From Prorocentrum cordatum (lineage: Eukaryota > Sar > Dinophyceae > Prorocentrales > Prorocentraceae): DNA of 64,000 bases. Below the pieces are notes generated by a model, which searched no databases, was not told the DNA's origin, and saw only the letters and a list, made by a program, of their open reading frames with translations. Where the stretch lies: the NCBI GenBank assembly GCA_963575745.1, contig CAUYUJ010014324.1:90810-154809 (forward strand). Reading direction: 5' to 3'. Every line of letters starts with the position of its first letter. The stretch's first letter is position 1. Position numbers and translations under genes: made by a program. Positions 1 through 15,789 of this stretch are shown here, piece after piece.

Positions 1-65
1 ATAACCTCGTGGAGGTCCGCGCGGTGCTCCGAAAATGTTTGTGTTTTCTTCGAGCCGCCGTCATT

Positions 66-69
66 GCCA

Positions 70-114
<45 letters not shown>

Positions 115-117
115 CGT
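66..117. repeat. (CGT)n microsatellite
   Basis: An uninterrupted run of CGT triplets. It makes an Arg-only stretch in the plus frame and is simple-sequence DNA, not a coding signal. Confidence 0.9.
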
Positions 118-282
118 GAGCCGCCGCCCTCGGGCTCGGCCGGGCAGGTCCCTGGCGCCCGGCCGCCACCGCGACAGGTCGGTGGCGAAGGCGCTGAGGC
201 AGTAGAGCAGCTCCGTGGGGCCCAGCTCCCGCTTGCGCGAGAGAACCTGGGCCCTGCCGCTTGTTCCCGTGCCCTCTGTCCT

Positions 283-446
283 GCCTCCTCCTCCTCCTCC
301 TCCTCCTCCTCAGTTCCTCCTCCTCCTCCTCAGTTCCTCCTCCTCCTCCTCCTCCTCCTCCTCCTCCTCCCCCTCCTCCTCCTCCTCCTCCTCCTCCTCC
401 TCCTCCTCCTCCTCCTCCTCCTCCTCCTCCTCCTCCTCCTCTATCC
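283..446. repeat. (TCC)n pyrimidine tract
   Basis: About 160 bp of almost pure CCT/TCC on the plus strand with two short TCAG interruptions. All three plus frames read as poly-Ser, poly-Pro or poly-Leu, so the overlapping ORFs are artefacts. Homopurine-homopyrimidine mirror tracts like this can form triplex DNA. Confidence 0.9.
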
Positions 447-1092
447 TCATCAATCCTTCTCCTCTGTCCTCCCCTTCAACCTCCTCTGTCCTCCTCGTCC
501 TCCTCTTCATCCCGTGTCCTCCTTCTCCTTCCCCTGGCCACCTCCTGCACCCTCCTTCCCGTCTTCTACCCTCTACCGCCTTCTCCTGTATTCCCTTCCG
601 TCCTTCTCATCCTCTTCCGTCACATGCAAGGTCACGAACCCTTCAATGACGCACTTGCTCCTGATTTTCGTTCCAGGTTCGTTCCAGTTTCGTTCTGGTA
701 CGTTTCGCCCTGGGGCAACACTAAACAGACATTGATACGAAAGCCGAACGAGACTGAAACGAAACCAGAACGAACAAGCGACGACAGTGGAGCGAAAACA
801 GAACGTCCCACCGCTGATTAAAAAACGAGTATCAGGCGACAACGTAACATATTATTTGACACCTCGAGAGCCTAAAGACCACACACCAAACCTCCTCTCT
901 CCCCCCATCCACCGTTACAGCGGGTACAGCGGTGCTGTACCACAGCACCTCGATATGTAACACTCGAGGAACACAATTGCCTCCGATCCACAAACACCCT
1001 GGGTTCTGTTCGTCCGGGGGCCGCAGGGGGATGATAACAACACCCTCAGGGCACCCTCTGGCAGGCCCATTCCCCTTTCGATGTGCCTGATG
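447..1092. other. No gene seen; one imperfect foldback
   Basis: CT-rich DNA grades into mixed sequence. Positions 672-775 hold an imperfect inverted repeat: a GTTCGTTCCAG-like arm returns as CCAGAACGAAC. No protein family, RNA gene or promoter signal was recognised. Confidence 0.5.
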
Positions 1093-1126
1093 TATCCTCC
1101 TCCTCCTCCTCCTCCTCCTCCTCCTT
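1093..1126. repeat. (TCC)n microsatellite
   Basis: A short CCT/TCC run on the plus strand. Confidence 0.85.
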
Positions 1127-2167
1127 GGTCCTCCTCCTGTATCCTCATTGCCCTCCTGTGTCATCCTCCTCGGTTTCATATCCTCTTCTCTGACCCCCCC
1201 TGCCCCCACCCACGCCCTCGGTGCGGGCCACCGTGCCCTGGAGGCTGCAATGTCAACTCGCGTCGAATCTGGAAAAACGGACCAAGTCGGAACGTGCGTC
1301 AGATCAGCCGCGCCAAGGTGCACAATACCGCCGTGCAAGCATCGTGTCGCAGCGGAGTGTCGGAGAACATCGGAACCGAATCGGACTGAGCTGGCCGCAG
1401 TCGAAATCGACTCGGATCGGTCGAATCGATGTGGGCCCAGCCCGAGCCGTTTCTTGACGGGCTTGGGGCCCAGAAGGAGCCTTGAGGGGGAATTCGGGGG
1501 GGGACGGGCTCAGGGCGAAAAGCATCGACCCGAAATCGGCGAAGCATCGCCGATAGCTCGGCGATCGGCTTCCCCATTGCGCATTCCGAGCGTTCATCGG
1601 GGGTCATCGGGCCCCCATCGGCGCTCAACGGGCAATTCGGGGTTGATGCGCCCCCGACCTGAACCTGCCCCCTCCCGACGTGGCCGCTCAGTTCCCGAGG
1701 CCTCCAAGGGCCGAACACGCAACAGAACCGCCCCTCGCGCCCTCCGCGGCGGCTGCCCGGATCTGGCCAGCGGGAGACCGCCGAATGCCGCCGACGGCCG
1801 CCGACTCGCCGACGGGCCGCAGACGGCCGCCGACGGCCGTCGAAAGCCGCCAGCGGCCGCCGATCACCGCGGACGGCCGGCGATGGCCGCCGGAGGCCGC
1901 CGGAGGCCGCCGACAGTCTCCGACGACCAGCGAAGACCGGCGGCGGCCACGACGGTGGCAGCGTCGTGCGATGAGTCAGTGGGGATTCGGGGTGACTGCG
2001 CGATTCGAGTCGTTCTTTGAAGATGTCGCTGGCGATTCGGACTTCCAAGGTCTCAAAACGGCGCGGTGAAATTGCGGTCAGGGCACCGAAGGCCTTCGGG
2101 CCGATCTCAAGCCCTTTGTGATTATGTCTGGGGCTCGCATGTGTATGCGGATGAGTTCTCGACAGTA
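1127..2167. repeat. GC-rich spacer with degenerate GCCGCCGAC repeat
   Basis: Nothing is recognised in the first 600 bp. From about 1745 to 1940 a degenerate 10-13 bp unit of the type CGGCCGCCGA recurs many times. Long ORFs on both strands here read as Arg/Ala/Pro-rich low complexity and come from the absence of AT-rich stops. Confidence 0.55.
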
Positions 2168-2177
2168 AATGCTAGCT

Positions 2178-2336
2178 TTAGGTCGGGCATGTCCCCCTTC
2201 AGGGGGATTCTGGACGAAGAAAAACAAATAGCCCAAATAATACTCCCAACAATAAATATAAATAGTAGAAGAATCGTCCCAGACTCTGGTTTGACTATTT
2301 TCGAATATTCCTCCTGTAGAGGGACAGGCCCGACTT
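2178..2336 (+). mobile_element. MITE family 1, copy 1 (intact, with TSD)
   Basis: A 159-bp non-coding element that starts TTAGGTCGGGC and ends GCCCGACTT. The outer 28 bp or so are imperfect terminal inverted repeats (GTCGGGCATGTCCCCC against GGGACAGGCCCGAC), and the interior is AT-rich. It is flanked by a perfect 10-bp direct repeat AATGCTAGCT at 2168-2177 and 2337-2346. Target duplications of 9-11 bp are typical of Mutator-like elements, so this is probably a non-autonomous MULE derivative. It has no ORF of its own. Confidence 0.85.
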
Positions 2337-2346
2337 AATGCTAGCT

Positions 2347-2577
2347 GCGTGTGTATGACCGTACGAGATGCGGCGCGACAAGGAGATGAGGCCGCGCGTA
2401 AACGCGCGAGTGCGCGACTTCATTGACTCCCGCCTCGCGTATCCGAAATGCCGCGGGCGAAGGCCCCTATCCTCGAACCTCGGGGGAATGGAGGAGAGAG
2501 AGAGAGAGAGAGAGAGCGGGGCGGGGAGAGGGACTGGACGGACCAGGGCCCCCCCCCCAACCCACGCGGGGTGCACC
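2347..2577. other. Spacer with (GA)n run
   Basis: No gene recognised. A (GA)n microsatellite occupies about 2492-2515, followed by G-rich and then C-rich sequence. Confidence 0.5.
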
Positions 2578-2580
2578 CTT

Positions 2581-2616
2581 TTTTTCCCAACCATCCTGTG
2601 GTGTTGGGTCCTCGTT
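2581..2616. repeat. Left boundary motif of the array cassette, copy A
   Basis: Thirty-six bases beginning TTTTTCCCAACCATCC are identical to 50348-50383. In both places a CT-rich stretch and then a tandem array of the same family follow. Here the array is displaced to 11404 by the retrotransposon. The motif holds the short inverted repeat CCCAAC...GTTGGG. Confidence 0.75.
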
Positions 2617-2676
2617 TTGAAGAGACGGCGCCCCGCGTTCCTCACCTCCTCCCCCTCCTCCCCCCCTCCCTCCTCC

Positions 2677-2678
<2 letters not shown>

Positions 2679-2735
<57 letters not shown>
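2679..2735. repeat. (ATC)n microsatellite, left flank of the LINE
   Basis: An uninterrupted CAT/ATC run. A matching run on the same strand lies at about 11358-11400, on the other side of the retrotransposon. On the minus strand the endonuclease reading frame runs straight into this repeat and takes its TGA stop from it (2733-2735), which shows that the coding sequence is cut at this point. Confidence 0.9.
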
Positions 2736-2737
<2 letters not shown>

Positions 2738-4899
2738 CGGCCGAGCCGAGCTGGCGCGAGGGGGCGGGGGTGGGATCACGCTGATACCCTCCGCTGATGC
2801 GGCTCCCCTTTCCCGCCCCCGACGCCGACGCATCGCTGACGCCCTCTCCAGTGGCCCTCGCACTGCTGGCTGCCGCTGCCGCTGCGAGGCTCGCGAAGGA
2901 GTTCACTTGGGGCTGGGGTGGGATCGCGCTGTCCCCGTCCGCAGATGCGGCTCCCATCCCCGCCCCGTCAGACTGGCCCTCTGTGACGCCGACCTGCTCA
3001 CCCTCGTCGCCATTGCCACCCTCGTACTGGCTGAGGCGCTCGTAGGCGTAGTGCGTGCAGAGGTCCATCCACTCTACCTTGTCCTGCTGCGCGTCGGGGG
3101 CGTGCAGGCGCGGCAGCCAGCCGTTGGCCAGTCGCGCCAGTGTGCGCCTGACGCCTGCCTCACCCACCTCGATGGCACTCCACCCCCCCGCGTCCATTGG
3201 GCAGGTGGCAGGCCTGCGAAGCACTGGTGGTAGGGGAGCGACGTCGCGTATGCCATTCTCCGTCTCGGGATAGCCGTGGACGATGGGCGCGCCTGGGAGG
3301 GGCCTGCTGTAGCCACCCCGCTCCTCCAGCCAACGCCTGGACTCGTGGTAGCTGTCCGCCGTCCTGCGCAGCTCCTCCTCCCAGCAGTCGGGGTCGAGAA
3401 GGCCTAGCTGCTGAAGAATGCGCACCAGCTCATGCCTGCCTGTGCCGCCGCGACGCCAGGCAGACTCGCATACTTCCCTGGCCGTCTGCAGGCGACGCCC
3501 AAAGTTCTGGGCCAGGCCCGTCGCAATGTGCGTCGGCAGCCCCAGCATGCGAAAGATGTAGGGCACGCAATTTTCCAACCACTCGTTCTCGTCCGCGTAG
3601 TGGTCGGGGTTGCTGGGGTTGGAGACCCACCCGCGGGCACGGCGCCCGAGCACCCGCTTGTAGCGCTTGATTGCCCTGGCCTCCATACGCTCCGCCGCCC
3701 GCTCGTCGTTGTCCAGCTGGCACTGGATGAGCCCTGCCGAAGAAACGGCATCCGAGCCTCCGCCGACGAGCTGATGGAGCTGCGTGAAATAGTCGCTCAG
3801 ATGCATGAGCTTCTTGCCCTTGTAGCTGGCCTTGGGCCCCTTGATGGGGCGCGCCCTGGCCTGCGTGCCGAAGCTGAAGCTCGGCGGGCCCCCGCGGCCA
3901 CGGTGCAAACTGGCGTCGTCAGGCGGGATCTGGTAGATCCAGACGAGCTCGTTCTCCACTCCCCGGCACAGGGCGCGGTCTACCCCCGCCATTGCCTGCG
4001 TGTCCTCCCCCACGCCGATAGCGTCCCGCAACTCGTCGTGGTTCCACTCCTTGGCTGGCATAGGCCCATAAGGCCTGTCCTTGGGAAAGGCTGCGGGGCC
4101 TTTGACGCGGAATGACTGGCCAATGTCGCCCTGACAAGCCAAGGAGAGCTTGACCCCGATGTGGGGCCTGCACGGGTTGGCGTAGCCCTGCTCCGTCATG
4201 TTGAGGCGCTCGCACCCGCTGACGAGGTCCAGCATATCTACGCTGACGATGAACCAATCGAGCTCAGATGGCTCCTTGACGGGGGAGTGCTGGCAGGTGC
4301 CCTTGCCCGTGTCGACGACGTGTCCGCCCAGCTTGCGCAGCCAGTGCCCCGCGCGGAGGTGGAACCTGCCAGGCTCGACGTTCCAGTCCCCCGCCAGGAC
4401 CCAGGGCTTGCCAGTGCACTTCAGCGTGGCTCCAACCTGCTGCAAGACGCTCTGGCTGCGCTCGCCCACGTCGTCGTTGTCCAGGTAGACCGAGCCCAGC
4501 AGGAAGCCTCCAGGCACGAGGCCATTGATGTGCACGATGGTAGCGCGGCCCTCGGCTGCGTGGCAGCTGTCCTTGCTGCCGCCATCGCCTGGCCCGCACA
4601 TGCCACGCGAGGTGCGCACGGCCACGCCAGTGCCGCTGCTGACGGCGCGCTGGAGGCCTGCGCCGACCGAGCCCACCCCTGGGGTCAGCACGGCGCTCCA
4701 GCCAACCTGCCGACACCACTGCTCCTGCTCCACGGCGCGGTAGCCGTTGAGGTGGTGCTCCTGGATGCACAGTGCGTCGCCGAGGTGAGCCACCGCCACC
4801 GCCTGCTGTTGCGGGTCCTGCTGCTCGCCGAGGATGGTGGTGAAAGGGCCCCATCCGCTGCCGTTGAGGCTCACGATGGTGAAGTGGGGGCGGCTACCC
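2733..4899 (-). CDS. LINE ORF2, endonuclease half (truncated)
   Basis: About 720 open codons on the minus strand. The N-terminal 250 residues form an AP-like endonuclease/exonuclease/phosphatase fold, which in LINEs nicks the target DNA. Visible motifs in order are SLNGSGWG (near 4860), CIQEHH (near 4760), AGDWN (near 4390), SELDWFIVS (near 4255) and PHIGVKL (near 4160); these match the family's Asn, Glu, Asp-Asn and His positions. A long linker of unknown fold follows. The stop codon lies in the (ATC)n repeat, so the natural continuation into reverse transcriptase is lost on this strand. The start is uncertain: the open frame continues upstream through ORF1 out of frame, and the coding sequence proper begins near the ORF1 stop. 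Confidence 0.8.
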
Positions 4900-6098
4900 C
4901 CGCTTCCCCCTTCTGCGTATCCCCGCGGAGCGGAGGCCTTGGAGGAGCTTCTGGGCACGAAGCTTGCGCATGGCGGCGGCTGCGGCGGCCTTGGCTGCGG
5001 CGTCGCCTGCTGCCTCGCCGTTGCCCACCTCGCCCGCCACGGCCTCTGCTGCCCCCTCCTCGGTGGCCTCTTCCTCCAGGGAGTCCAGGATGACGTCGAC
5101 GTCCTTCTCGTCGATCTCCTGCTCGTCGCCGCTCCCGTCGCGCTCCGCCGCGGCACCTGCTGTGGCAACGCGCTGTGCCAGACGCCGCAACTCTGCGACT
5201 TGGCCGTCCCATTGCTCAGCGAAGCCAGGGGCGAGCATGCCTGAGCACTGGTTAAGAGCGGCGAGGAAAGCGGTGGCTCGCTCCCCCTCGCTGAGTTGGG
5301 CGCCTGGGGACGCTGGGGCAACCGTCCCTCGCGGCCCTTCCTCCCGCTGCTGTGCTTCACGCTCGCGGAGCTGTTGCGCCAGGAGGTTGTCGATGAGCGC
5401 CTGGAGCTCCTTCTCGCCGGCCTGACTCTGCGCATGTTTGCCCTCCAGCTCGAGCTTGTGGGCCTGTAGTTCAGCGAGCTGCTTGTCCGCCGCCGAGATC
5501 CTGCTCGCCAAGGCCGCCGTGGTGGCCTCCTGGTTCTTCTGCTTGCGCTCCAACTCGCTGAGCTGGACTGATGTGGGCTTGGTTGCTGCCAACTCGTTCT
5601 CCAACTGCTGCGCCTCCTGCCGTTTGGATTCGAGAATGGCCTCCGCGCCGTCCACGCCCTCGATCTTCTTGATCTCACTTCGTAGCTTGCCCAATCGGCG
5701 GACACGTTCAGACTTGTCGTCAGGCTGCGACCCGACGCCTGCCGCCCCAGCGCCACCGCCATCGACTCCTGGTCCTGCTTGGCTGCTGGTCTCCAACTTT
5801 TTGACCTTCCTCCGCAACTGGTTGAGCTCGTGGCGTTCTCTGGCGTCCAGTTGTGACATGCCCTCCACCAAGAACTCGTACCAGAACCGCTTTCCCACCA
5901 GTCGTAGCCGCAGCTCCTGCAGACGTGCCGAGAGCCCCAATTCTTCTTGGCTCCGCACTGGGGGCAATCCCAGACCCTGGGCGCTGCACCGCTGCCGCCC
6001 GCGCCTGGAGCTTGGCCGCCCCGCTGTCCACGGCTGCCACTGGCTCTGCCGCCGCCGCCGCGCGCGGCACCACGAGCACCGCCTCCACGTCCTGCCAT
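4894..6098 (-). CDS. LINE ORF1: zinc finger plus coiled-coil protein, frameshifted
   Basis: A probable RNA-binding ORF1 protein of about 400 residues. A start at MAGRGGG (6098) leads through a Gly/Arg/Ala-rich stretch to a RanBP2-type zinc finger, W-D-C-x2-C-x4-N-x6-C-x2-C (5915-5975). The body lies in another frame from about 5890 to the stop at 4894. It holds Leu/Glu/Lys heptads (LNQLRRKVKKLE, KLRSEIKKIE and a longer helix near 5430-5540), an acidic patch and a basic tail ending RRRGKRG. The finger and the coiled coil are one frame step (-1) apart near 5890, through mutation or programmed shifting; I cannot tell which. Zinc finger and coiled coil followed by an overlapping endonuclease frame is the normal LINE ORF1-ORF2 order. 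Gene limits are inferred. Confidence 0.65.
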
Positions 6099-6286
6099 TG
6101 GTCGAGCCCGCCGCGGCTGGGCTCCCAATCGGGCGACTGGGGCCGGGTGTCGGTGATGTAATATGGAAAGAACTGTGGCCCAAAAGGCCTCACTGAAAGC
6201 TTGGAAGATTGGGAATCTGACCCAAGAATGGACGCGACGGCTAGAGCCAGCCTCATGAGACCAGACATCTGCCCTGATCGCGCCAC

Positions 6287-6308
6287 CTTGAGCCAAAATG
6301 GCTACGGA
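6287..6308 (-). other. Dinoflagellate spliced leader (SL), genomic cDNA copy
   Basis: Read on the minus strand, all 22 nt match the known dinoflagellate SL: T, then CCGTAGCC, ATTT, TGGCTCAAG. The SL is added to mRNA 5' ends by trans-splicing and is not normally encoded next to genes, so a genomic copy marks reverse-transcribed mRNA. Its position, with the LINE ORF1 5' leader directly after it and the oppositely oriented half directly before it, marks the 5' terminus of the copied RNA. It also contributes the first ATG of the plus-strand ORF (6298-6300). Confidence 0.92.
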
Positions 6309-9300
6309 CATGCGTGAGGACAGCTGGCAGGCCCCCGAGGGCGCGCGCAACAAGTACGCGCGCAAGGTCCGCGAGTTGGAGGCCAGCGACCCCGGCGCAT
6401 GGGCCATCGCTGACGACGAGCACTACTGCTACCTGCAGGGCGTAAAGCAGTTCATGCGGTACCACGGCGGCAGGCGCGAGGGCAGCGACTGCAGCTCCGA
6501 CGGCGACGTCAGCAGCAGCGGCGACGGAGCAGCGCAAGCGAGCAGCAGGGCGCCCAAGCCCCCGTCCACGGTGGGCCTTCCCCTCGGCGCCCAGTGGGCA
6601 GCACGCGTGGCCCTGGCCGCCGAGTGCCCCAGCCTGCCCCCCTTGGCCGACTGGGCCGCTGAGGCCAGGGCCGAGGCGGAGGCCGATGGAGCAGCCTTCG
6701 CCGTCATTCGAGGCCAGGGCTTCAAGGAGTGGATCCGTCACTCCATGGCTGAAGGCGCAGGCGGGCTCCACGCCTATCGGCGCGGGCCCAGGGCATGGGC
6801 CCCTGACGACGAGTACAATGGGGCCCCAGCCCATGCCCCAGACCGAGTGAAGGTTGTGGCGAAGCAATCGTCAACAGAGGTCTGGCGGGTCAGGCGAGAC
6901 CGTGACAGGTTTCGGCCGCAGCTCCCGCGCTCTGGCGGCGAGGCCCTCCCCAGGCCCTCAGCCGATGAGCTGCGCATGGCCGCCAGGACCTTCAGGCACG
7001 GCACTGGCGTCGGCAGCGACCGCCTCAACCCGCGGAAGGCCGCGGACCTCAGCGACGAGCTTCTGGAGGCAGTCGTTGACTTCGGGATGAAGTGTGAGGA
7101 GATCGGCGGCTGGCCCGACGTCATCACGGACTCGCTTGTGGTCATGCTTCCGAAGCCACAGGGCGGGTTTCGGCCCATTGGGCTGCTGGGCTGGCTCCCT
7201 CGCCTTTGGAGCCGAGTCCGTCAGCCCGTGGCGCGGCGCTGGGACTCGCAGATTGACCCTGGCGTCGCAGGCGCCTTCTGGGGGGGGCGCGGCCGCGCGG
7301 CCGAAGAGGCCGTCTGGTGGCAAGCCCTGCGCGCAGAAGCCGCACACGCACGTGGAGAAGGAGCAGCAGCGGCGCTCATCGACCTATGGAAGGCCTACGA
7401 GCTCGTGGACCTGGCCATCATCCAGGGCCGTGGCGTCCTGGCTGGCTACCCTCGGCGCCTGCTGGGCATGGCCCTCACCCTGTACGCGGGGGAGCGCCGC
7501 TTCATGCTTGATGGTAGCGTGTCCGAGCCCTACCTGCTGGATGCGGGACTCATCGCGGGGTGCTCGCATGCGGGTCGGCTCCTCAAGTGCGGCCTGCTGG
7601 TGCCCGCGGACGAGCATGCGCGGCTGTGGCGGGCGCTCGAGCCCAGAGTCACCCTCGCCATCATGTTCGACGACTGCTGCGTCGGCTGCCACGGACCGAT
7701 GGCACAGGTCGCAGCCTACATGGCCCAGGCGGCGAAGGCGGTCATCTCACAGCTGGAGGCCCTAGGCTGCAAGGTCTCAGCAGCAAAGAGCGAACTGCTG
7801 GCCAGCTCGCCAGAGCTGGCATCACTGGTCGCCAAGCTAATGGGAGGCATCGCCTTCCCCATCGCCGACTCGGTCAAGAACCTGGGGGTCGACTACTGCC
7901 TCGACGGCCAGGCGTTCGTGGTCCTCGAGAAGCGGCATACGAAGGCGGCACCCCAGTTGCAGAGGTTGCACGCCATCCGCTCGCAGGAGACCCCAGCAGC
8001 AGCTCGAGTGGCGAACACTGGTCTGCGGCCTGCTACTCGCTATGGGCTGAGTGTGGTGGGTTGGCCGACGTCGCAGCTCAACAAGTGGAGGAGCCAGGTC
8101 AACGCCGTTCACCATGGGCGCGGCCAAGGCAAGAGCCTCAGCCTCAGTTTCCTCCTCAACAAGCGTCTGCACTGCGACCCGCTGCACGGCCACGTGGCGC
8201 TGCCCATTGTCGCATGGGCCAAAGCGGTGCAGTTCAACTCGGACAGTAGGGACCTGAGGGCCCTGGGCAGCGCTTTCGCAGGGGCTAGGACGTTGCTGGC
8301 CAGAGGCGGGCCTGAGGCGTTGGCTGGACGCGGGCCAGCTGCTGCGTGCGTGTTAGCCTGCCACCGCCTGGGCTGGACCGCCACACTGCCAGGGTTGCTC
8401 ACCAACGACAAGCAGCAGCCTCTGGACCTACGGACCCTGGGGGCCTCCACGCTCGCCAAGCACATCGCCGACGGCCACGAGAGGGCGCTGTGGCGAGCAG
8501 CGAGCAAGCACCCAGGGCTGGAGCACCTGCGCGATGGAGGCGCCCTGTCCAGTATCAGGCGCACACTGGCACGCAAGCGCATGAGCAAGCAGAAGGCCAA
8601 GCATATGAGTTCTGCCAAGAACGCGCTGGTCGGATGTCTCTGGCCCGTGGCGCGGCGGTTCTTTGAGGAGCGCCCATTGGCCTCCTCTCCTTGGTGCCCC
8701 AGGGGGTGCCCTGCGCACGGCGCAGTGCGGCGCCTGGCGTGGCAGTGCCCAGCCACCGAGGCTAGCCGCGCCGAGTGGATCTCCAACGAGGAGGCGGACG
8801 AGCGGTGCCCCCATGGCGACACCCCCTTCCGCTCCATCGTCGGTATGGCCAGCATCGGGGGAGAGGAGGACCCGCTCTGGTCCCGCGCTCTTGCACCCGA
8901 GCACCGAAGGGCCCTGCCACCGCCCACCGACACCAGGGAGGCGCGGAAGGAGGGCCGTGCCGACTTGGTGGGGCAGCCGCTCTCGGGCGACCTCTTCACG
9001 GACGGGAGCGTTCTGGACCCCAGCCTCGTCTCGGCGCGCGGCGGCTGGGCGGTCGTCGTCATGGGGCCCGACGGCGAGGCAGTCAGCCTCTTCGGGCCGC
9101 TCCCCTGGCCGTATCCACAAGAATCAGGGGCAGCGGAGCTGGTGGCGGCCATCGAGGGCATCCAGAGCTGCTTACCACCTGTGCGGATCTTCACGGACTG
9201 CAAGCTGCTCGTGGACGGCTTCGCGGCGGGCAAGGCGTGGTGCCTGCAGTGGCAGCGGCCTTACCGCGAGCTATGGGTGCGGTTCTGGGCGGCCCTCGAC

Positions 9301-10263
9301 GACGTGGGGGTCGGCAGCGTCACCATCCACAGGGTGAAAGCGCACGCCGCGCTGGCGGACGTGCAGGCGGAGCGCGTCACGGCCTGGCAGCGGCGGGGCA
9401 ATCACAGCGCCGATGCCCGCGCCGTGCAAGGCGCGCAGATGCATCCCAGCGACGACGACGTGCGAGATAGGAGCCGCAGGCAGGATCGTCTCGTCAAGAA
9501 GGTCTTCTGCTGGCTGGGTGCGGCGATGCAGGACGGCGACGCCGAGCTCACGGCAGCGGACGGGCACGAGGGCCCAGGCATGGAAGCAGTTCGGTGCGAT
9601 CGGCGCGGCTGCAAGATGCGATGGCGAGCTCGCTGCAGTTTCCCCGACTGCCCGCAGCGCGCGTGCGGGCGGCACGGGACGTGGCTGGACGTCGACGGCG
9701 ACACGGTCTGGGCCTGCCAGCGGTGCGCGGGCAGGGGCGACGCGCTCGCGGGCTCCTGGGCCTCTGGGGCCGAGAGCAGTGGCGGATCGGTAGCTGCAGC
9801 CGCGGCGCTCATCACGGCGGGCGCGGCGCTGCTGTCCCACAGTCAGGCCAGCGAGGCACCAGCACAGGTGGAAGGAGACGAGGCGCGTGCAGGGCGAGTC
9901 GGCAGCGGCGCGCCTGGCGGCGGCCAGCGGGGAAGCCCACCGACGTCTGGGGGCCCTTCTGGGGCCGTTGGCGGGCCCCCGCCGCTGCCGCCGCCGCAGC
10001 TCCCGCCGTGGTGGGGATTCGACGCCCACGGCTCCCACGACCTGTGGCGGGCTGGTAACCACCTCTTCTGCGTGAAGTGCGGCTACTGGACGCAGAGCCG
10101 TAGGATGGCGGGCCTGGCAGCGGAGTGCCCGAAGGCCCCCAATAACGATAGGCAGAAGGCGGTGCTCAGCAGGCTGAAGCGCGGCCTGCAGCCCGCTGGG
10201 ACGGGCGGCATCGGTGACCCTGAGCCGCTGCGGCGCATGCGCAGGCGCGTCGATGGTGGCTAG
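6298..10263 (+). CDS. LINE ORF2, reverse transcriptase-RNase H half
   Basis: An uninterrupted frame of 1321 codons. Reverse transcriptase motifs are PKPQGGFRPIGLL (residue 285), DLWKAYELVD (first Asp 362), GLIAGCSHA (about 420) and the catalytic box MFDD (456-459), in which Met replaces the usual aromatic first residue. A thumb region is followed by a zinc knuckle CPRGC...W-x-CP (about 800) and RNase H with D902 (FTDGS), E947, D967, H1016 and Asp near 1039, so all catalytic acids are present. A Cys/His cluster (1100-1144) and a C-terminal HDLWRAG...FCVKCGYW motif (about 1246-1264) complete it. The first ATG is inside the antisense SL, so the natural start is missing; the next ATG is at 6310. 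The lack of stops suggests a young copy. Confidence 0.85.
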   Translation: MATDMREDSWQAPEGARNKYARKVRELEASDPGAWAIADDEHYCYLQGVKQFMRYHGGRREGSDCSSDGDVSSSGDGAAQASSRAPKPPSTVGLPLGAQWAARVALAAECPSLPPLADWAAEARAEAEADGAAFAVIRGQGFKEWIRHSMAEGAGGLHAYRRGPRAWAPDDEYNGAPAHAPDRVKVVAKQSSTEVWRVRRDRDRFRPQLPRSGGEALPRPSADELRMAARTFRHGTGVGSDRLNPRKAADLSDELLEAVVDFGMKCEEIGGWPDVITDSLVVMLPKPQGGFRPIGLLGWLPRLWSRVRQPVARRWDSQIDPGVAGAFWGGRGRAAEEAVWWQALRAEAAHARGEGAAAALIDLWKAYELVDLAIIQGRGVLAGYPRRLLGMALTLYAGERRFMLDGSVSEPYLLDAGLIAGCSHAGRLLKCGLLVPADEHARLWRALEPRVTLAIMFDDCCVGCHGPMAQVAAYMAQAAKAVISQLEALGCKVSAAKSELLASSPELASLVAKLMGGIAFPIADSVKNLGVDYCLDGQAFVVLEKRHTKAAPQLQRLHAIRSQETPAAARVANTGLRPATRYGLSVVGWPTSQLNKWRSQVNAVHHGRGQGKSLSLSFLLNKRLHCDPLHGHVALPIVAWAKAVQFNSDSRDLRALGSAFAGARTLLARGGPEALAGRGPAAACVLACHRLGWTATLPGLLTNDKQQPLDLRTLGASTLAKHIADGHERALWRAASKHPGLEHLRDGGALSSIRRTLARKRMSKQKAKHMSSAKNALVGCLWPVARRFFEERPLASSPWCPRGCPAHGAVRRLAWQCPATEASRAEWISNEEADERCPHGDTPFRSIVGMASIGGEEDPLWSRALAPEHRRALPPPTDTREARKEGRADLVGQPLSGDLFTDGSVLDPSLVSARGGWAVVVMGPDGEAVSLFGPLPWPYPQESGAAELVAAIEGIQSCLPPVRIFTDCKLLVDGFAAGKAWCLQWQRPYRELWVRFWAALDDVGVGSVTIHRVKAHAALADVQAERVTAWQRRGNHSADARAVQGAQMHPSDDDVRDRSRRQDRLVKKVFCWLGAAMQDGDAELTAADGHEGPGMEAVRCDRRGCKMRWRARCSFPDCPQRACGRHGTWLDVDGDTVWACQRCAGRGDALAGSWASGAESSGGSVAAAAALITAGAALLSHSQASEAPAQVEGDEARAGRVGSGAPGGGQRGSPPTSGGPSGAVGGPPPLPPPQLPPWWGFDAHGSHDLWRAGNHLFCVKCGYWTQSRRMAGLAAECPKAPNNDRQKAVLSRLKRGLQPAGTGGIGDPEPLRRMRRRVDGG

Positions 10264-11357
10264 GCTCTTTCTTGCCACGCTTGCCGCCTCGCTCTGTCTG
10301 CCATCAATTGAACAGACGTGTGTTTAGCACACGGCTGTTCGGGCTGCCTCTGCAAGGCAACCAAACCCTACTTTGGTGCCTCAGGTCGCGTGAGGGTGTT
10401 GCCTTGCGGGGGCAATCGCTGCTGCGAGGCGCGTTCCGCGCCGCTCTCCAGCAGCGCCGCCCGTCCCAGTGCTGAGGCGGAACCAAGTGCGCAGGGGTTT
10501 CCACACGCACGGGATCGGGCTCGGCTGCCAGCGGCAACGTAGCAGGTTGGCATCTGGCCAGGACCCGCTGCGATGTTGGTGGCGAAGTGCGGCCGCTTGC
10601 ACGGTGTTTAGTCGGGCGCGCTTGTGCCTTGCATGCTCGCCCTGCGGAAGCTGAACCAGGTGCGTAGGTTCGCCCACGCACGGGATCGGGCTCCGTCTGT
10701 TCTGTGTTGCTCTGCCCCCGCTCTCGGGTGGAGGCTGAACCAGGAGCGTAGGATTTCACACGCTCGGGATCGGGCTCTGCTGCCAGCGGCAACGTTAGGT
10801 CCCTTGGACGCGGCGATGCTGCAGGCTAAGCAGCCTTTGCTCGGCGCTCGTGTCCCGCTCTTGAGCTAGCTCGTGCCGTTGCACGGCTCTCGCTCGAGCG
10901 GAAGCTGGACCAGGTGTGTTGGTTTCCACGCACTGGAGCGTTCCGTTTAATGTAGTGGCTGGCGCGCTTGCCGCGACGGCCAGCGCTTCTTGCGCCCCAG
11001 TTTGCTCTGCTCTGTGCCGCCAGTCGGAGGCTGGACCGTGGTGGTAGGTTCGCACACCGCCATGGTTGCCTCCGAAGGCCACCGCATTGCAAACCTTCCC
11101 TGTCTGTGGCCTGGTGCCAGCGGGAGGTTTGCGGTGCTGTGGCACCTCGAGCCAGCATGCTGAGTTGCCGTGAATGCTCGATGCCCTGCCTTCCGCTTGC
11201 CTCGGCCGAGGCGGATGGCGTGGCCTCTAGTCTTCAGGCGAGGCTGCGAGTGTGCCTTGGGCACGGGTCAGGCCTTGCGTCCGCAGCGCCAGAGGGAAAG
11301 GCCATGGCTTCGGGAGGCTGTATCGAGCGGGGAGCTCCAGACCTTCTTGGATGCGTG
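10264..11357 (+). repeat. LINE 3' untranslated region with degenerate tandem units
   Basis: No ORF of merit. A unit containing GGAAGCTGAACCAGGTGCG, GTTTCCACACGCACGGGATC and CTGCCAGCGGCAACG recurs in decaying form near 10478, 10645, 10731, 10898 and 11023. The first part (10275-10345) can fold into short hairpins. The stretch lies between the reverse-transcriptase stop and the (ATC)n repeat, so it is most simply the element's 3' UTR. Confidence 0.6.
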
Positions 11358-11358
11358 G

Positions 11359-11400
<42 letters not shown>
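11358..11400. repeat. (ATC)n microsatellite, right flank of the LINE
   Basis: An uninterrupted ATC run on the same strand as 2679-2735. It merges at once into the first unit of the 90-bp array (ACCACCGATTTCGGCATACC). The two runs are best read as one original microsatellite split or duplicated by the insertion. Confidence 0.88.
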
Positions 11401-11401
<1 letters not shown>

Positions 11402-11555
11402 CCACCGATTTCGGCATACCCCTCATACGTTTCGTGGCCCCATAGGGAGCTCCGCCGAAGGCCCCAGTGGCAGGGTACGCATGCCTCCCCACCACCCATT
11501 TCGGCACACCCCTCACACGTTTCGTGGCCCCATAGGGAGCTCCACCGAAGGCCCC
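11401..11555. repeat. 90-bp tandem array, left block
   Basis: Nearly two units of the array described at 11998-13255, cut off from it by the 11556-11997 insert. Confidence 0.85.
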
Positions 11556-11997
11556 ACGCCCGCGCTCGGAGACGTTCCTCGCGGCTCAGACGCTCAGAAG
11601 TTCGCATTCGAAAGTGCGGCCTTCAGCTGCAGCGCTCCTCTGGAAGTGCCACAGACCGAACGGGGCGTCGTCGGCCACTGCTCGCCGGTTCCTCCCTGTC
11701 CTGGAAGCAGGCAGGCGGACCCCCGCAGTGCTCCTCACTCCTATCAGCGCCCCTGGGACAGTGCCGTTGTCGAGGCAGGAGATGCGATCCGAAGCGCGCC
11801 TTCCAGTGCCGTGGCAACAATTGGGGGCGCTGCAGAAGGCGCGCCTCCGCTCGGAAACGTTCCTCACTGTTCAGGCGCTCAGGAATTTGCATCCGAAAGT
11901 GCGGCCATCAGCTGCAGCAGTCCTCTGGGAGCGCCACAGACCGAACAGGGCGTCATCAGCCGCACCGCGCCGATTCCTCCCTCTCGTGGCAGCAGGC
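11556..11997 (-). repeat. Inserted copies of the 294-bp repeat family, inverted
   Basis: About one and a half units of the family that forms the 27.3-29.3 kb array, in the opposite orientation. Diagnostic blocks GAAAGTGCGGCC, TCAGCTGCAGC and CTATCAGCGCCCCTGGGACAG recur, with the first block at 11610 and 11895 (285 bp apart). The copy interrupts the 90-bp array. Confidence 0.8.
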
Positions 11998-13255
11998 AGC
12001 AGGGTCCGCATGCCTCCCCACCACCCATTTCGGCACACCCCTCACACGTTTCGTGGCCCCATAGGGAGCTCCACCGAAGGCCCCAGTGGCAGGGTCCGCA
12101 TGCCTCCCCACCACCCATTTCGGCACACCCCTCACACGTTTCGTGGCCCCATAGGGAGCTCCACCGAAGGCCCCAGTGGCAGGGTCCGCATGCCTCCCCA
12201 CCACCCATTTCGGCACACCCCTCACACGTTTCGTGGCCCCATAGGGAGCTCCACCGAAGGCCCCAGTGGCAGGGTCGCATGCCTCCCCACCACCCATTTC
12301 GGCACACCCCTCACACGTTTCGTGGCCCCATAGGGAGCTCCACCGAAGGCCCCAGTGGCAGGGTCCGCATGCCTCCCCACCACCCATTTCGGCACACCCC
12401 TCACACGTTTCGTGGCCCCATAGGGAGCTCCACCGAAGGCCCCAGTGGCAGGGTCCGCATGCCTCCCCACCACCCATTTCGGCACACCCCTCACACGTTT
12501 CGTGGCCCCATAGGGAGCTCCACCGAAGGCCCCAGTGGCAGGGTCCGCATGCCTCCCCACCACCCATTTCGGCACACCCCTCACACGTTTCGTGGCCCCA
12601 TAGGGAGCTCCACCGAAGGCCCCAGTGGCAGGGTCCGCATGCCTCCCCACCACCCATTTCGGCACACCCCTCACACGTTTCGTGGCCCCATAGGGAGCTC
12701 CACCGAAGGCCCCAGTGGCAGGGTCCGCATGCCTCCCCACCCATTTCGGCACACCCCGGCACACCCCTCACACGTTTCGTGGCCCCATAGGGAGCTCCAC
12801 CGAAGGCCCCAGTGGCCTGGTTCGCATGCCTCCCCAACACCCATTTCGGCACATCCCTCACACGTTTCGTGGCCCCATGGGGATTTCCACTGAAGGCCCC
12901 AGTGACTGGGTTCGCATGCGCCCCCACACCCATTTCGGCACACCCCTCACACGTTTCGTGGCACCATAGGGAGCTCCACCGAAGGCCCCAGTGGCTGCGT
13001 TCGCATGCCGCCCCCACACCAATTTCGGCACACCCCTCACACGTTTCGTGGCCCCACAGGGAGCTCCACCGAACGCCCCAGTGGCTGCGTTCGCATGCCG
13101 CCCCCACAACAACTGCGGTGCACCCCTCACACGTTTCGTGGCCCCATAAGGAGCTCCACCGAAGGCCCCAGTGGCAACGTTCGCATGCCGCCCCCACACC
13201 CATTTCGGCACACCCCTCAAACGGTTCGTGGCCCCATAGGGAGATCCACCGAAGA
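11998..13255. repeat. 90-bp tandem array, main block
   Basis: About 14 units. The central units are nearly identical and lie exactly 90 bp apart (GCATGCC at 12008, 12098, 12188); units decay towards the right end. Each holds CATTTCGGCACACCCC, TCACACGTTTCGTGGCC and CCATAGGGAGCTCCACCG. Because 90 is a multiple of three, 30-residue repeats appear open on both strands, so the long ORFs (such as those at 10968-12893 and 11956-13203) are not evidence of genes. Confidence 0.92.
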
Positions 13256-13970: not shown

Positions 13971-14224
13971 ACCCCACTTGGGAGGCCTGAGTGGGAGGAG
14001 GCAGGGCGAGGACAAGGACCAGGACATCCGCATAAGGGGGCCAGCGTCAACACCTACGAAGGAGCTGTGCGTGCGACTCGCCAATCCCCTGCGATCAGAC
14101 TGTGCCGCAGGCCCAGTCGTGAGAGTTTCGGTATAATCCTCCCTCCGTCGGGACTCCCAGTGCCTGAGCCTCCGACGCCGACTGGGCAGGGCGAGGAGGA
14201 GAGGGAGGAGGATAGGGCGACGCA

Positions 14225-14374
14225 ATCTATACATATCCACTGCTCCCTGGCCAGGCCCATCCTGAACACAGCAGCTGTGTATACGCCACGCCCTCCTGGT
14301 TTGGCTAGGAGGGCGTATACACAGCTCCTGGGTTCAGGATGGGCCTGGCCAGGGAGCAGTGGATATGTATAGAT
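14225..14374. repeat. Near-perfect 150-bp hairpin (foldback element)
   Basis: Two arms of about 70 bp, starting ATCTATACATATCCACTG and ending CAGTGGATATGTATAGAT, pair almost perfectly around a short loop near 14298-14309. It resembles a MITE or foldback element and shares the GTGGATATG...TATAGAT motif with 58866-58950. Confidence 0.85.
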
Positions 14375-14545
14375 TTCGTCCCCCGAGAGGAGCACCCGCC
14401 GGCGCGAGGAGCAGGAGGGAGGCGCACGGACGGCGCGCCTGCAGCCCGAGCTCGGGGAGCAGCGCGGCGGCGCCGTCGGCCTCCACCGCCAGGAACGACA
14501 CGGCGGCGTAGGCGAGCGACCGGCCTGCGCGGCCGCTGCCCTCGA

Positions 14546-14779: not shown

Positions 14780-15789
14780 ACTCTGGGATGATCTGGGCTC
14801 GGTGTCATCCTCGTTCAGCGCCAACTCTGCGCCCGTGTGTTTGCCCTTCTTGTGGCGCCAGGCTCCGAAAATGAACCTCTTGCGCAACTTCTCGCAAGTC
14901 GCCTCGAACTGCTCGCCGGCTCCGCCCGCGACGTCGTCCACCGCGAGGCGCGCGATCCCGAGCGGGACCCTCTGGCCCCCCAGGCAGAAGACGCAGCCAT
15001 CGAAGGCGGAGCACTGACAGCCACTCTCCTTAGCGTAGTCCGTGAACGAAGATAACCGCTGCACTGGGGCATCTCCCAATCCGTAGAATTAGGTCGGGCA
15101 TGTTCCCCTACATGGGGATTGTGGGCGAAAAATAAAAAATAGTCAACACATACACCTAAAATAATCAAACACATGCTGAAAAAATCGTCCCAAGACTATT
15201 GTTTGACTATTTTTGGATATCCCTCCTGTAGAGGGACACGCCCGACTTATCCGTAGACCGTAGACGGCCATGGGCAACTCCGCCAGCGAGCCAGTCCCGA
15301 CGTCGGAGGCGCCTGTCCGATGCAAGTCCACATGCCGGCCTCCCTGCGTTCGATCGAGGGGGTCGCGTGCCGCGGAGGCGGAGGTGATGTCGGCCAGCTG
15401 GAGCGTCCACTTGTTGGTTCACAGAATCTGCAAGATGAGGAACACAGAGTCCTTGCCGACCACGGGACTGTGGGTCTCCAGGTCGAGCAAGTCGAGGTTG
15501 GCATGGCCCTGACCGTCCACGGTGCCTTGGCCATCCTCCAAGTGCCGTCGATTTGGAAAAGCAGGGGCACCTTGCTTGCATCTGCGTCCTCGGAGTCGCC
15601 ATCCTTGTCCGTCAACGCCCATCGGGGGACCATGATACAACGGGCCTTATCGGGATCCTGTCGAACTGCATCCGATTCCCCAGGTGGTAGTACTCGCGCG
15701 GCGCCAACGCGCATGATGTTAATCCACTCGCGCCGCTTGGCTGAGACATAGGGCTGATATCTGTCAGAGTGAGGAGGGCGGACGGTCAT
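14780..15789 (-). pseudogene. Decayed Ty1/copia reverse transcriptase
   Basis: Read on the minus strand. The 15789 end begins with the typical copia region KRREWINIM...VPRWALTDKDG. After a frameshift it continues with GHANLDLLDLETHSPVVGKD, where an RDSPT-like segment is expected, then TNKWTLQLADITSAS (LQ.D...AF-like). It then reaches VYGL just before a MITE; beyond the MITE comes GDAPVQRLSSFTDYAKESG, then DGCVFCL and the catalytic-box counterpart RLAVDDVAGGAG (near 14930), then KLRKRFIFGAWRHKKGKHTG. The order and spacing fit the copia polymerase, with the VDD Asp pair kept. At least two frame changes and the MITE make it a pseudogene. No integrase, protease or long terminal repeats were found nearby. 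Confidence 0.72.
15089..15248 (+). mobile_element. MITE family 1, copy 2, inside the copia gene
   Basis: A 160-bp copy with termini TTAGGTCGGGC and GCCCGACTT and an AT-rich interior. The 10-bp flanks ATCCGTAGAA (15079-15088) and ATCCGTAGAC (15249-15258) are a target duplication with one mismatch. The insertion splits the conserved YGL...DAP motif of the copia reverse transcriptase, so it is younger than that element. Confidence 0.88.

Follow-up and report, generated by a model that had tools for sequence, protein, structure and literature searches.

In the dinoflagellate Prorocentrum cordatum, a stretch of 64,000 nucleotides (nt) of contig CAUYUJ010014324.1 (assembly GCA_963575745.1, positions 90,810 to 154,809 of the forward strand; hereafter the window, GC content 63%) carries a long interspersed nuclear element (LINE) at 2736..11358, with its 5′ half on the minus strand and, starting at 6309, its 3′ half on the plus strand. 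How did the two halves of a retrotransposon come to point away from each other? An initial annotation, made from the sequence alone, took the element for an apparent twin-priming product, in which a second cDNA runs to the 5′ end of the RNA and is joined to an internal point of the first. Our analysis leads to much the same answer: very probably, a LINE that targets (CAT)n and has a trans-spliced mRNA entered this site through target-primed reverse transcription accompanied by twin priming. The family is otherwise collinear, the first 3573 nt are inverted in the window, 39 nt are absent at the joint, a spliced leader (SL) stands at the 5′ end of the RNA, and CAT repeats lie on both sides. The features that bear on this are as follows.

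2677..2735, plus strand: left target flank, (CAT)19 plus CA, from the sequence and an array scan, with like target and phase in other copies
2677..2735, plus strand: proposed second primer, namely the 3′ end (...CATCA) of the left flank, from other copies with like phase
2736..6308, minus strand: 5′ half of the LINE in inverted orientation (RNA nt 1 to 3573), sharing a strand with the 3′ half in 20/20 fetched copies
6287..6308, minus strand: complete 22-nt dinoflagellate spliced leader (DinoSL), 5′ end of the LINE mRNA (leader sequence as in PMC6050394; this and all other papers are cited from excerpts)
6308..6309, no strand: inner joint, where the 5′ end of the leader meets the reverse transcriptase half; 39 nt of the intact element are missing (35-39 with microhomology)
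6309..11358, plus strand: sense 3′ half of the LINE, by comparison with fetched copies
11359..11401, plus strand: right target flank (or element tail), (ATC)14.3

Collinear copies in the same genome

The assembly (4,128,499,153 bases in 21,875 contigs) was searched with DNA of the window's 5′ half (3000-5900). Forty matches out of 258 candidates were scored, comprising the window itself and 39 further copies (94-99% identical to it), a minimum number. Twenty of the 39 were fetched as stretches of 8-10 kb; as these were chosen by best match to the 5′ half, they are biased towards long, young copies and are uninformative on the rate of truncation or inversion. In every one of the 20, the two halves share a strand, and a spacer of exactly 39 nt (13 codons) separates the 5′ half from the 3′ half downstream. 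The contig end falls inside the 3′ half in L010, and the listed 3′-half match ends at its nt 3804 in L020 and at its nt 4065 in L028. A single open stretch of 2519-2529 amino acids spans both halves in L014, L016 and L026, so the element can be a single open reading frame (ORF), with the 39 nt as 13 of its codons. The window copy is therefore an element with an inverted 5′ half and a 39-nt gap, much as the initial annotation had anticipated when it placed the codons ending at 2736 and those starting at 6309 next to, or nearly next to, each other in an intact ORF2.

A naturally divergent (bidirectional) element, for which nothing speaks beyond the window itself, is refuted for the copies seen: none of the 20 is divergent, and the endonuclease precedes the reverse transcriptase and RNase H in four related proteins (P0001-P0004, see below). 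Nor do the halves stem from two different LINE families. Relative to the window, the 5′ half has 1.1-3.0% substitutions and the 3′ half 1.35-4.5%, the two levels are correlated across the 20 copies (Spearman rho 0.85, p 2.6e-6), and the group nearest to the window is identical for both halves (L009-L017). By these comparisons both halves belong to one subfamily, intact copies of which exist at up to ~98.6% identity. That no fewer than 39 further copies of 94-99% identity exist, and that the joint is known from the assembly, is what could be said for a misassembly or a library chimera of two copies. However, a random chimera would hardly yield non-overlapping halves 39 nt apart, a joint at the end of the RNA and CAT repeats at both outer ends, and we consider this explanation extremely improbable.

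The CAT repeat and the two joints

Just two CAT arrays of at least seven units were found in the 64 kb (2677-2733 and 11361-11399), and they mark both ends of the element. Among the other copies, the 5′ end adjoins CAT repeats in 38/39, the remaining one (L030) adjoining a degenerate CAT-rich stretch. Moreover, triplets in CAT register make up at least 0.5 of the sequence before the leader (60 nt at most) in 37/39 copies, compared with 2/1065 60-mers of the window; L043 and L044 fall below this line but end in CAT units, and L030 lies above it though degenerate. CAT immediately precedes CCGTAG (or a one-base variant) in 33/39 copies. The 3′ end could be read in 17 of the 20 long copies, all of which enter ATC-type repeats (16 begin with ATC and L018 with GTC); the element itself ends in GGATGCGTGG in 16 of these and in GGATGCGTTC in the remaining one. 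The copies would represent independent insertions, as suggested by differing flanks beyond the repeat, which were seen in part. Since 38 of the other copies begin next to CAT repeats, the microsatellite at 2736, at which the initial annotation saw the inverted half stop, can be read as the insertion target, one shared by nearly all copies. The left flank of the window ends in ...CATCATCA, which is the phase of normal copies (CATCA followed by the T of the leader) if the first T of the leader comes from the RNA. The top strand would have been cut at CATCA^T, its 3′ end being joined to the cDNA in normal copies and acting as a primer in the window copy. Directly to the right of the LINE's CAT repeat lies a 90-bp satellite (11400-13254), and L013 is also satellite-like to the right of its repeat.

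At base level, most intact copies read ..GGCCGTT TGGCGAGC .. CAGTCGA CATGTGCGAGG.., and the window reads GGCCGTT TGATGATG at the priming end (RNA sense, running into the repeat) and CTACGGA CATGCGTGAGG at the inner joint. The TG at the priming point is common to the window and 18/20 intact copies, and the GA at the joint to the window and 19/20; 35-39 nt were lost at the joint when microhomology is counted. The second cDNA extended at least to nt 3 of the leader, nt 1-2 being compatible with further extension and ambiguous given the 2-nt microhomologies. The initial annotation had set the junction exactly at the 5′ end of the SL and had the mRNA reverse-transcribed to its first nucleotide. The leader does end at 6308/6309 and copying to within 2 nt holds; the exactness does not, given the two nucleotides (GA) common to the intact sequence at the inner joint and the shared T at normal 5′ joints. 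Independent of the leader, a codon model trained on the reverse transcriptase half gives positive in-frame scores as early as 6310-6381, the first block examined (6526-6597 dips slightly below zero), which also places the joint near there. No overlap between the halves was detected, the best same-sense match scoring 35.4 bits and the highest of 40 codon shuffles 36.8. A similarity between the endonuclease tail and the start of the reverse transcriptase (score 62, reached by 2/300 full shuffles) was discarded, as it is unremarkable against shuffles that keep local composition (49/400).

The insertion may be pictured as follows. The endonuclease would nick the bottom strand of the CAT repeat, and a first cDNA would run from the 3′ end of the RNA to about nt 3613. 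With the top strand cut at CATCA^T, its terminal CA could anneal to UG at RNA nt 3574-3575 and prime a second cDNA, extending to the capped leader end, after which both cDNA ends would be joined across the 2-nt (GA) microhomology. Twin priming is favoured by two positions that the model requires: the inner joint is no more than 2 nt away from an RNA 5′ end, and the inverted half meets the target with its outer end; the collinear copies, the 39-nt gap and the shared substitution ranks add support to what the initial annotation had proposed. The process is known to yield inversions with internal deletions (PMC2837659).

Several points weigh against this reading. The length of a target-site duplication is unreadable within the repeat, with CAT repeat on both sides of the insert. 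Bases 5 and 7 past the joint differ from all 20 intact copies, and a few filler bases may be present at the joint. Pairing at the priming point amounts to only 2 nt plus a T:G wobble, the junction at 6309 is known from the assembly, and this is a single event.

The joints bear on two further explanations. In dual priming, as proposed in PMC2837659, the two cDNAs would derive from two different RNAs of the same family. The halves are about equally near several copies, and their sequence cannot separate two sister RNAs from one. However, two independent inner ends falling within 39 nt of each other, without overlap, in an RNA of 8.66 kb would be rare (~0.5% by our estimate if ends are uniform), making dual priming very unlikely. 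Equally doubtful is a normal insertion of a collinear copy in which DNA recombination afterwards inverted the 5′ half. Such an event would leave a similar product, and no result favours it directly; one breakpoint would have to hit the boundary between flank and leader, and the other would have to lose 39 nt. In addition, among the 25 longest of 64 inverted-repeat pairs between 2400 and 11700, none exceeds 33 nt or pairs both breakpoints. Twin priming on a single RNA thus remains our preferred account.

Proteins, leader and 3′ untranslated region

The other features of the element are listed here.

6099..6308, minus strand: 5′ untranslated region (UTR), 210 nt with the leader; the ATG of MAGRGGG.. 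is at RNA nt 211, and the N-terminus of P0001 is similar in its start and zinc finger
5901..5975, minus strand: CxxC zinc-finger-like motif (WDCPQCGAKKNWGSRHVCRSCG), matching P0001 (56% identity over 25 amino acids, E 6.7e-4)
4897..6189, minus strand: coiled-coil ORF1-like region, in a different frame in the window copy, the coiled coil being read by eye
4368..4793, minus strand: APE-type endonuclease domain (Pfam stretch), PF03372 at 8.8e-6 and fold search
2736..3788, minus strand: long linker between endonuclease and reverse transcriptase, mostly coding by codon use, with the signal gone in the last ~50 codons
6310..10263, plus strand: reverse transcriptase and RNase H ORF, 1317 amino acids, from the ORF, Pfam and homology to P0002
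8992..9435, plus strand: RNase H domain, PF00075 at 1.5e-7
10264..11358, plus strand: 3′ UTR, its 3′ end common to copies
10472..11074, plus strand: five covarying stem-loops at 10472-10524, 10645-10695, 10729-10779, 10899-10946 and 11025-11074

The strand assignments of the initial annotation (SL, ORF1 and endonuclease on minus; reverse transcriptase and RNase H on plus) are borne out, with the DinoSL at 6308-6287, zinc finger, coiled coil and APE-type endonuclease on the minus strand, and both enzymes, followed by the 3′ UTR, from 6309 on. In the minus half the endonuclease matches PF03372 at 26.1 bits (cut-off 24.5), and the best match by E-value of its predicted fold in the PDB is human LINE-1 ORF2p (7e-10), the R1Bm endonuclease being listed too; TM-scores were modest, as confidence in the model is confined to about residues 1-255. 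Both Pfam and the fold search thus place an endonuclease of the exo/endo/phosphatase fold in the element. The coiled-coil region had no match in Pfam, and protein searches with the endonuclease half and its linker returned no relatives.

In the plus half, Pfam detects RNase H at 32.1 bits (cut-off 25.8) and RVT_1 at 16.4 bits, under its cut-off of 29.6. No solved structure was matched by a PDB sequence search with this half, and its structure model was set aside as too poor for use. For these reasons the call leans on homology to P0002 (28% identity over ~1000 amino acids), which itself scores 43.1 bits for RVT_1, and on residues invariant in a five-row alignment (A2): D358, K361, Y363, D454, D455, D898, E943, D963 and D1035. 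We assign catalytic roles to them on general grounds. On this basis the plus half is assigned as encoding a reverse transcriptase. The protein search with this half found four proteins (P0001-P0004), three of them named Prorocentrum cordatum, at no more than 33% identity over the query; IMG/VR scans found no relative. The spacing of landmarks, 710 amino acids across the window halves and 252-335 in P0001-P0004, appeared anomalous and was dismissed, since the collinear copies carry the long linker too. The long linker is a property of the element's own family.

The plus ORF (6310-10263) stays open in the window copy, whereas the frame of the 5′ half is broken, with zinc finger, coiled coil and endonuclease not in one common frame. 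One extra nucleotide over 49 codons of the linker, read by eye, suggests a frameshift near 2800. The linker also holds a ~58-nt repeat at a spacing of 148 nt (2761-2966). The antisense leader (6298-6312, plus strand) supplies the reverse transcriptase ORF with an in-frame ATG (MATDMREDSW), and a gene finder could place the start of this gene inside it.

The DinoSL (TCCGTAGCCATTTTGGCTCAAG) at 6308-6287 is the sole match with up to 3 mismatches in the 64 kb (0 in 100 shuffles). A leader within 2 edits is present in 37/39 copies, and the exact 21-nt core occurs somewhere in the fetched stretch of 29/39. The leaders of the two exceptions, L030 and L033, are aberrant; that of L033 is a fragment lying immediately against the CAT repeat and accompanied by a small internal duplication. 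In 8/39 copies the leader is followed by a 15-nt relic (CCATTTTGGCTCAAG), a form described for dinoflagellate retrogenes (PMC12014239). These tags show that RNA of the family has been trans-spliced, as the initial annotation held for the LINE mRNA, and more than once in the eight copies with relics. A possible second relic in the 5′ UTR of the window is weak and is not claimed, its score being reached by 40/1000 shuffles and 4.4% of 614 window stretches. The leader may be regenerated at the AG of the old one. With as much doubt as confidence, we propose that the family has no 5′ end of its own and spreads only via trans-spliced mRNA: its 5′ end would be renewed each round from the host leader, with the following round of splicing taking as its acceptor an AG within the previous leader (that of CAAG, or that of GTAG, which leaves the 15-nt relic). 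With (CAT)n guiding insertion and hairpins arrayed in the 3′ UTR, both ends would be supplied or guided by the host, and the enzyme would be a candidate maker of leader-tagged retrogenes in dinoflagellates.

The five like stem-loops in the 3′ UTR have z-scores of -2.4 to -5.6. On these five rows the covariation score was reached by 0/500 shuffles and the count of pairs with changes in both partners (4, shuffle mean 1.6) by 13/500; the covariation term of RNAalifold itself is slightly unfavourable (+0.64). The rest of the window contains no comparable match to a model of the stem-loop (next E 0.39), and Rfam gave no match above a family cut-off. In the 17 long copies with a readable 3′ end (L010, L020 and L028 being left out) the model has 71 matches, 2-5 in each and five in 10/17; L015, L022 and L027, with three stem-loops each, are without ~130-145 nt of the array. 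The 71 matches (31 distinct), which are fitted to the model and related by descent, have 35 cells changed on both sides compared with 12.6 when shuffled (0/500), and their number of both-side-changed pairs was reached by 106/500 shuffles. Stem-loops at the 3′ end of LINEs accompany template recognition in 'stringent' LINEs (PMC3747384), and those of the window may, by analogy, have such a role.

Elsewhere in the window, a putative miniature inverted-repeat transposable element of ~160 bp is present in two copies (2169-2345 and 15080-15257; 80% identical) with terminal inverted repeats and perfect 8-bp duplications (ATGCTAGC; TCCGTAGA), and has partial matches near 38.8, 58.3, 59.9-60.1 and 61.1-61.8 kb. 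A long imperfect palindrome (~170 bp, 86% self-complementary) lies at 14215-14384.

Comparison with known systems

No report of leader-tagged or (CAT)n-specific dinoflagellate LINEs was found in literature listings or in the excerpts of PMC8045281, PMC3229502, PMC3942190, PMC7789003, PMC11453091, PMC10666404 and PMC7245778, a search that reached few preprints or subscription journals. Dinoflagellate retrogenes tagged with the DinoSL (PMC6050394, PMC12014239) likewise have the leader and the relic CCATTTTGGCTCAAG in genomic DNA; here, however, the tagged sequence is a retrotransposon encoding the enzymes. LTR (long terminal repeat) elements had been favoured as the source of the enzyme that makes such retrogenes (PMC6050394), and the window family offers a concrete non-LTR element with trans-spliced RNA in the same group of organisms. 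The L1Tc/ingi LINEs of trypanosomatids also reside in a trans-splicing host, but L1Tc has its own Pr77 promoter and unspliced transcripts (PMC8190864), whereas genomic copies of the window family begin with the host leader.

Microsatellite-targeting non-LTR elements (Kojima and Fujiwara 2004, via PMC4640811), such as the (TG)n-specific Togen (PMC4640811), similarly have one simple repeat as the target of nearly all copies and a mostly constant junction phase. The window family differs in its (CAT)n target, RNase H, single ORF of ~2500 amino acids and trans-spliced RNA. Twin and dual priming are treated in PMC2837659 and PMC4245944, and twin priming is documented in them chiefly for L1; the cell assays of PMC4245944 gave inversions from human L1 in human cells and one Nimb-2_DR insert in DT40 cells. 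The 5′ inversions of human L1 ascribed to twin priming (Ostertag and Kazazian 2001, via PMC4245944) resemble the window element in the inverted 5′ segment next to the target, the sense 3′ segment, the small internal deletion and the microhomology. In contrast, the window element is inverted up to the leader-marked 5′ end of the RNA, lies in a CAT repeat and belongs to a dinoflagellate. With the stamp of the leader, a triplet-repeat target and near-identical intact copies, one can read to within 2 nt where the primer ends, where it primed, how far the second cDNA ran and where the joint lies.

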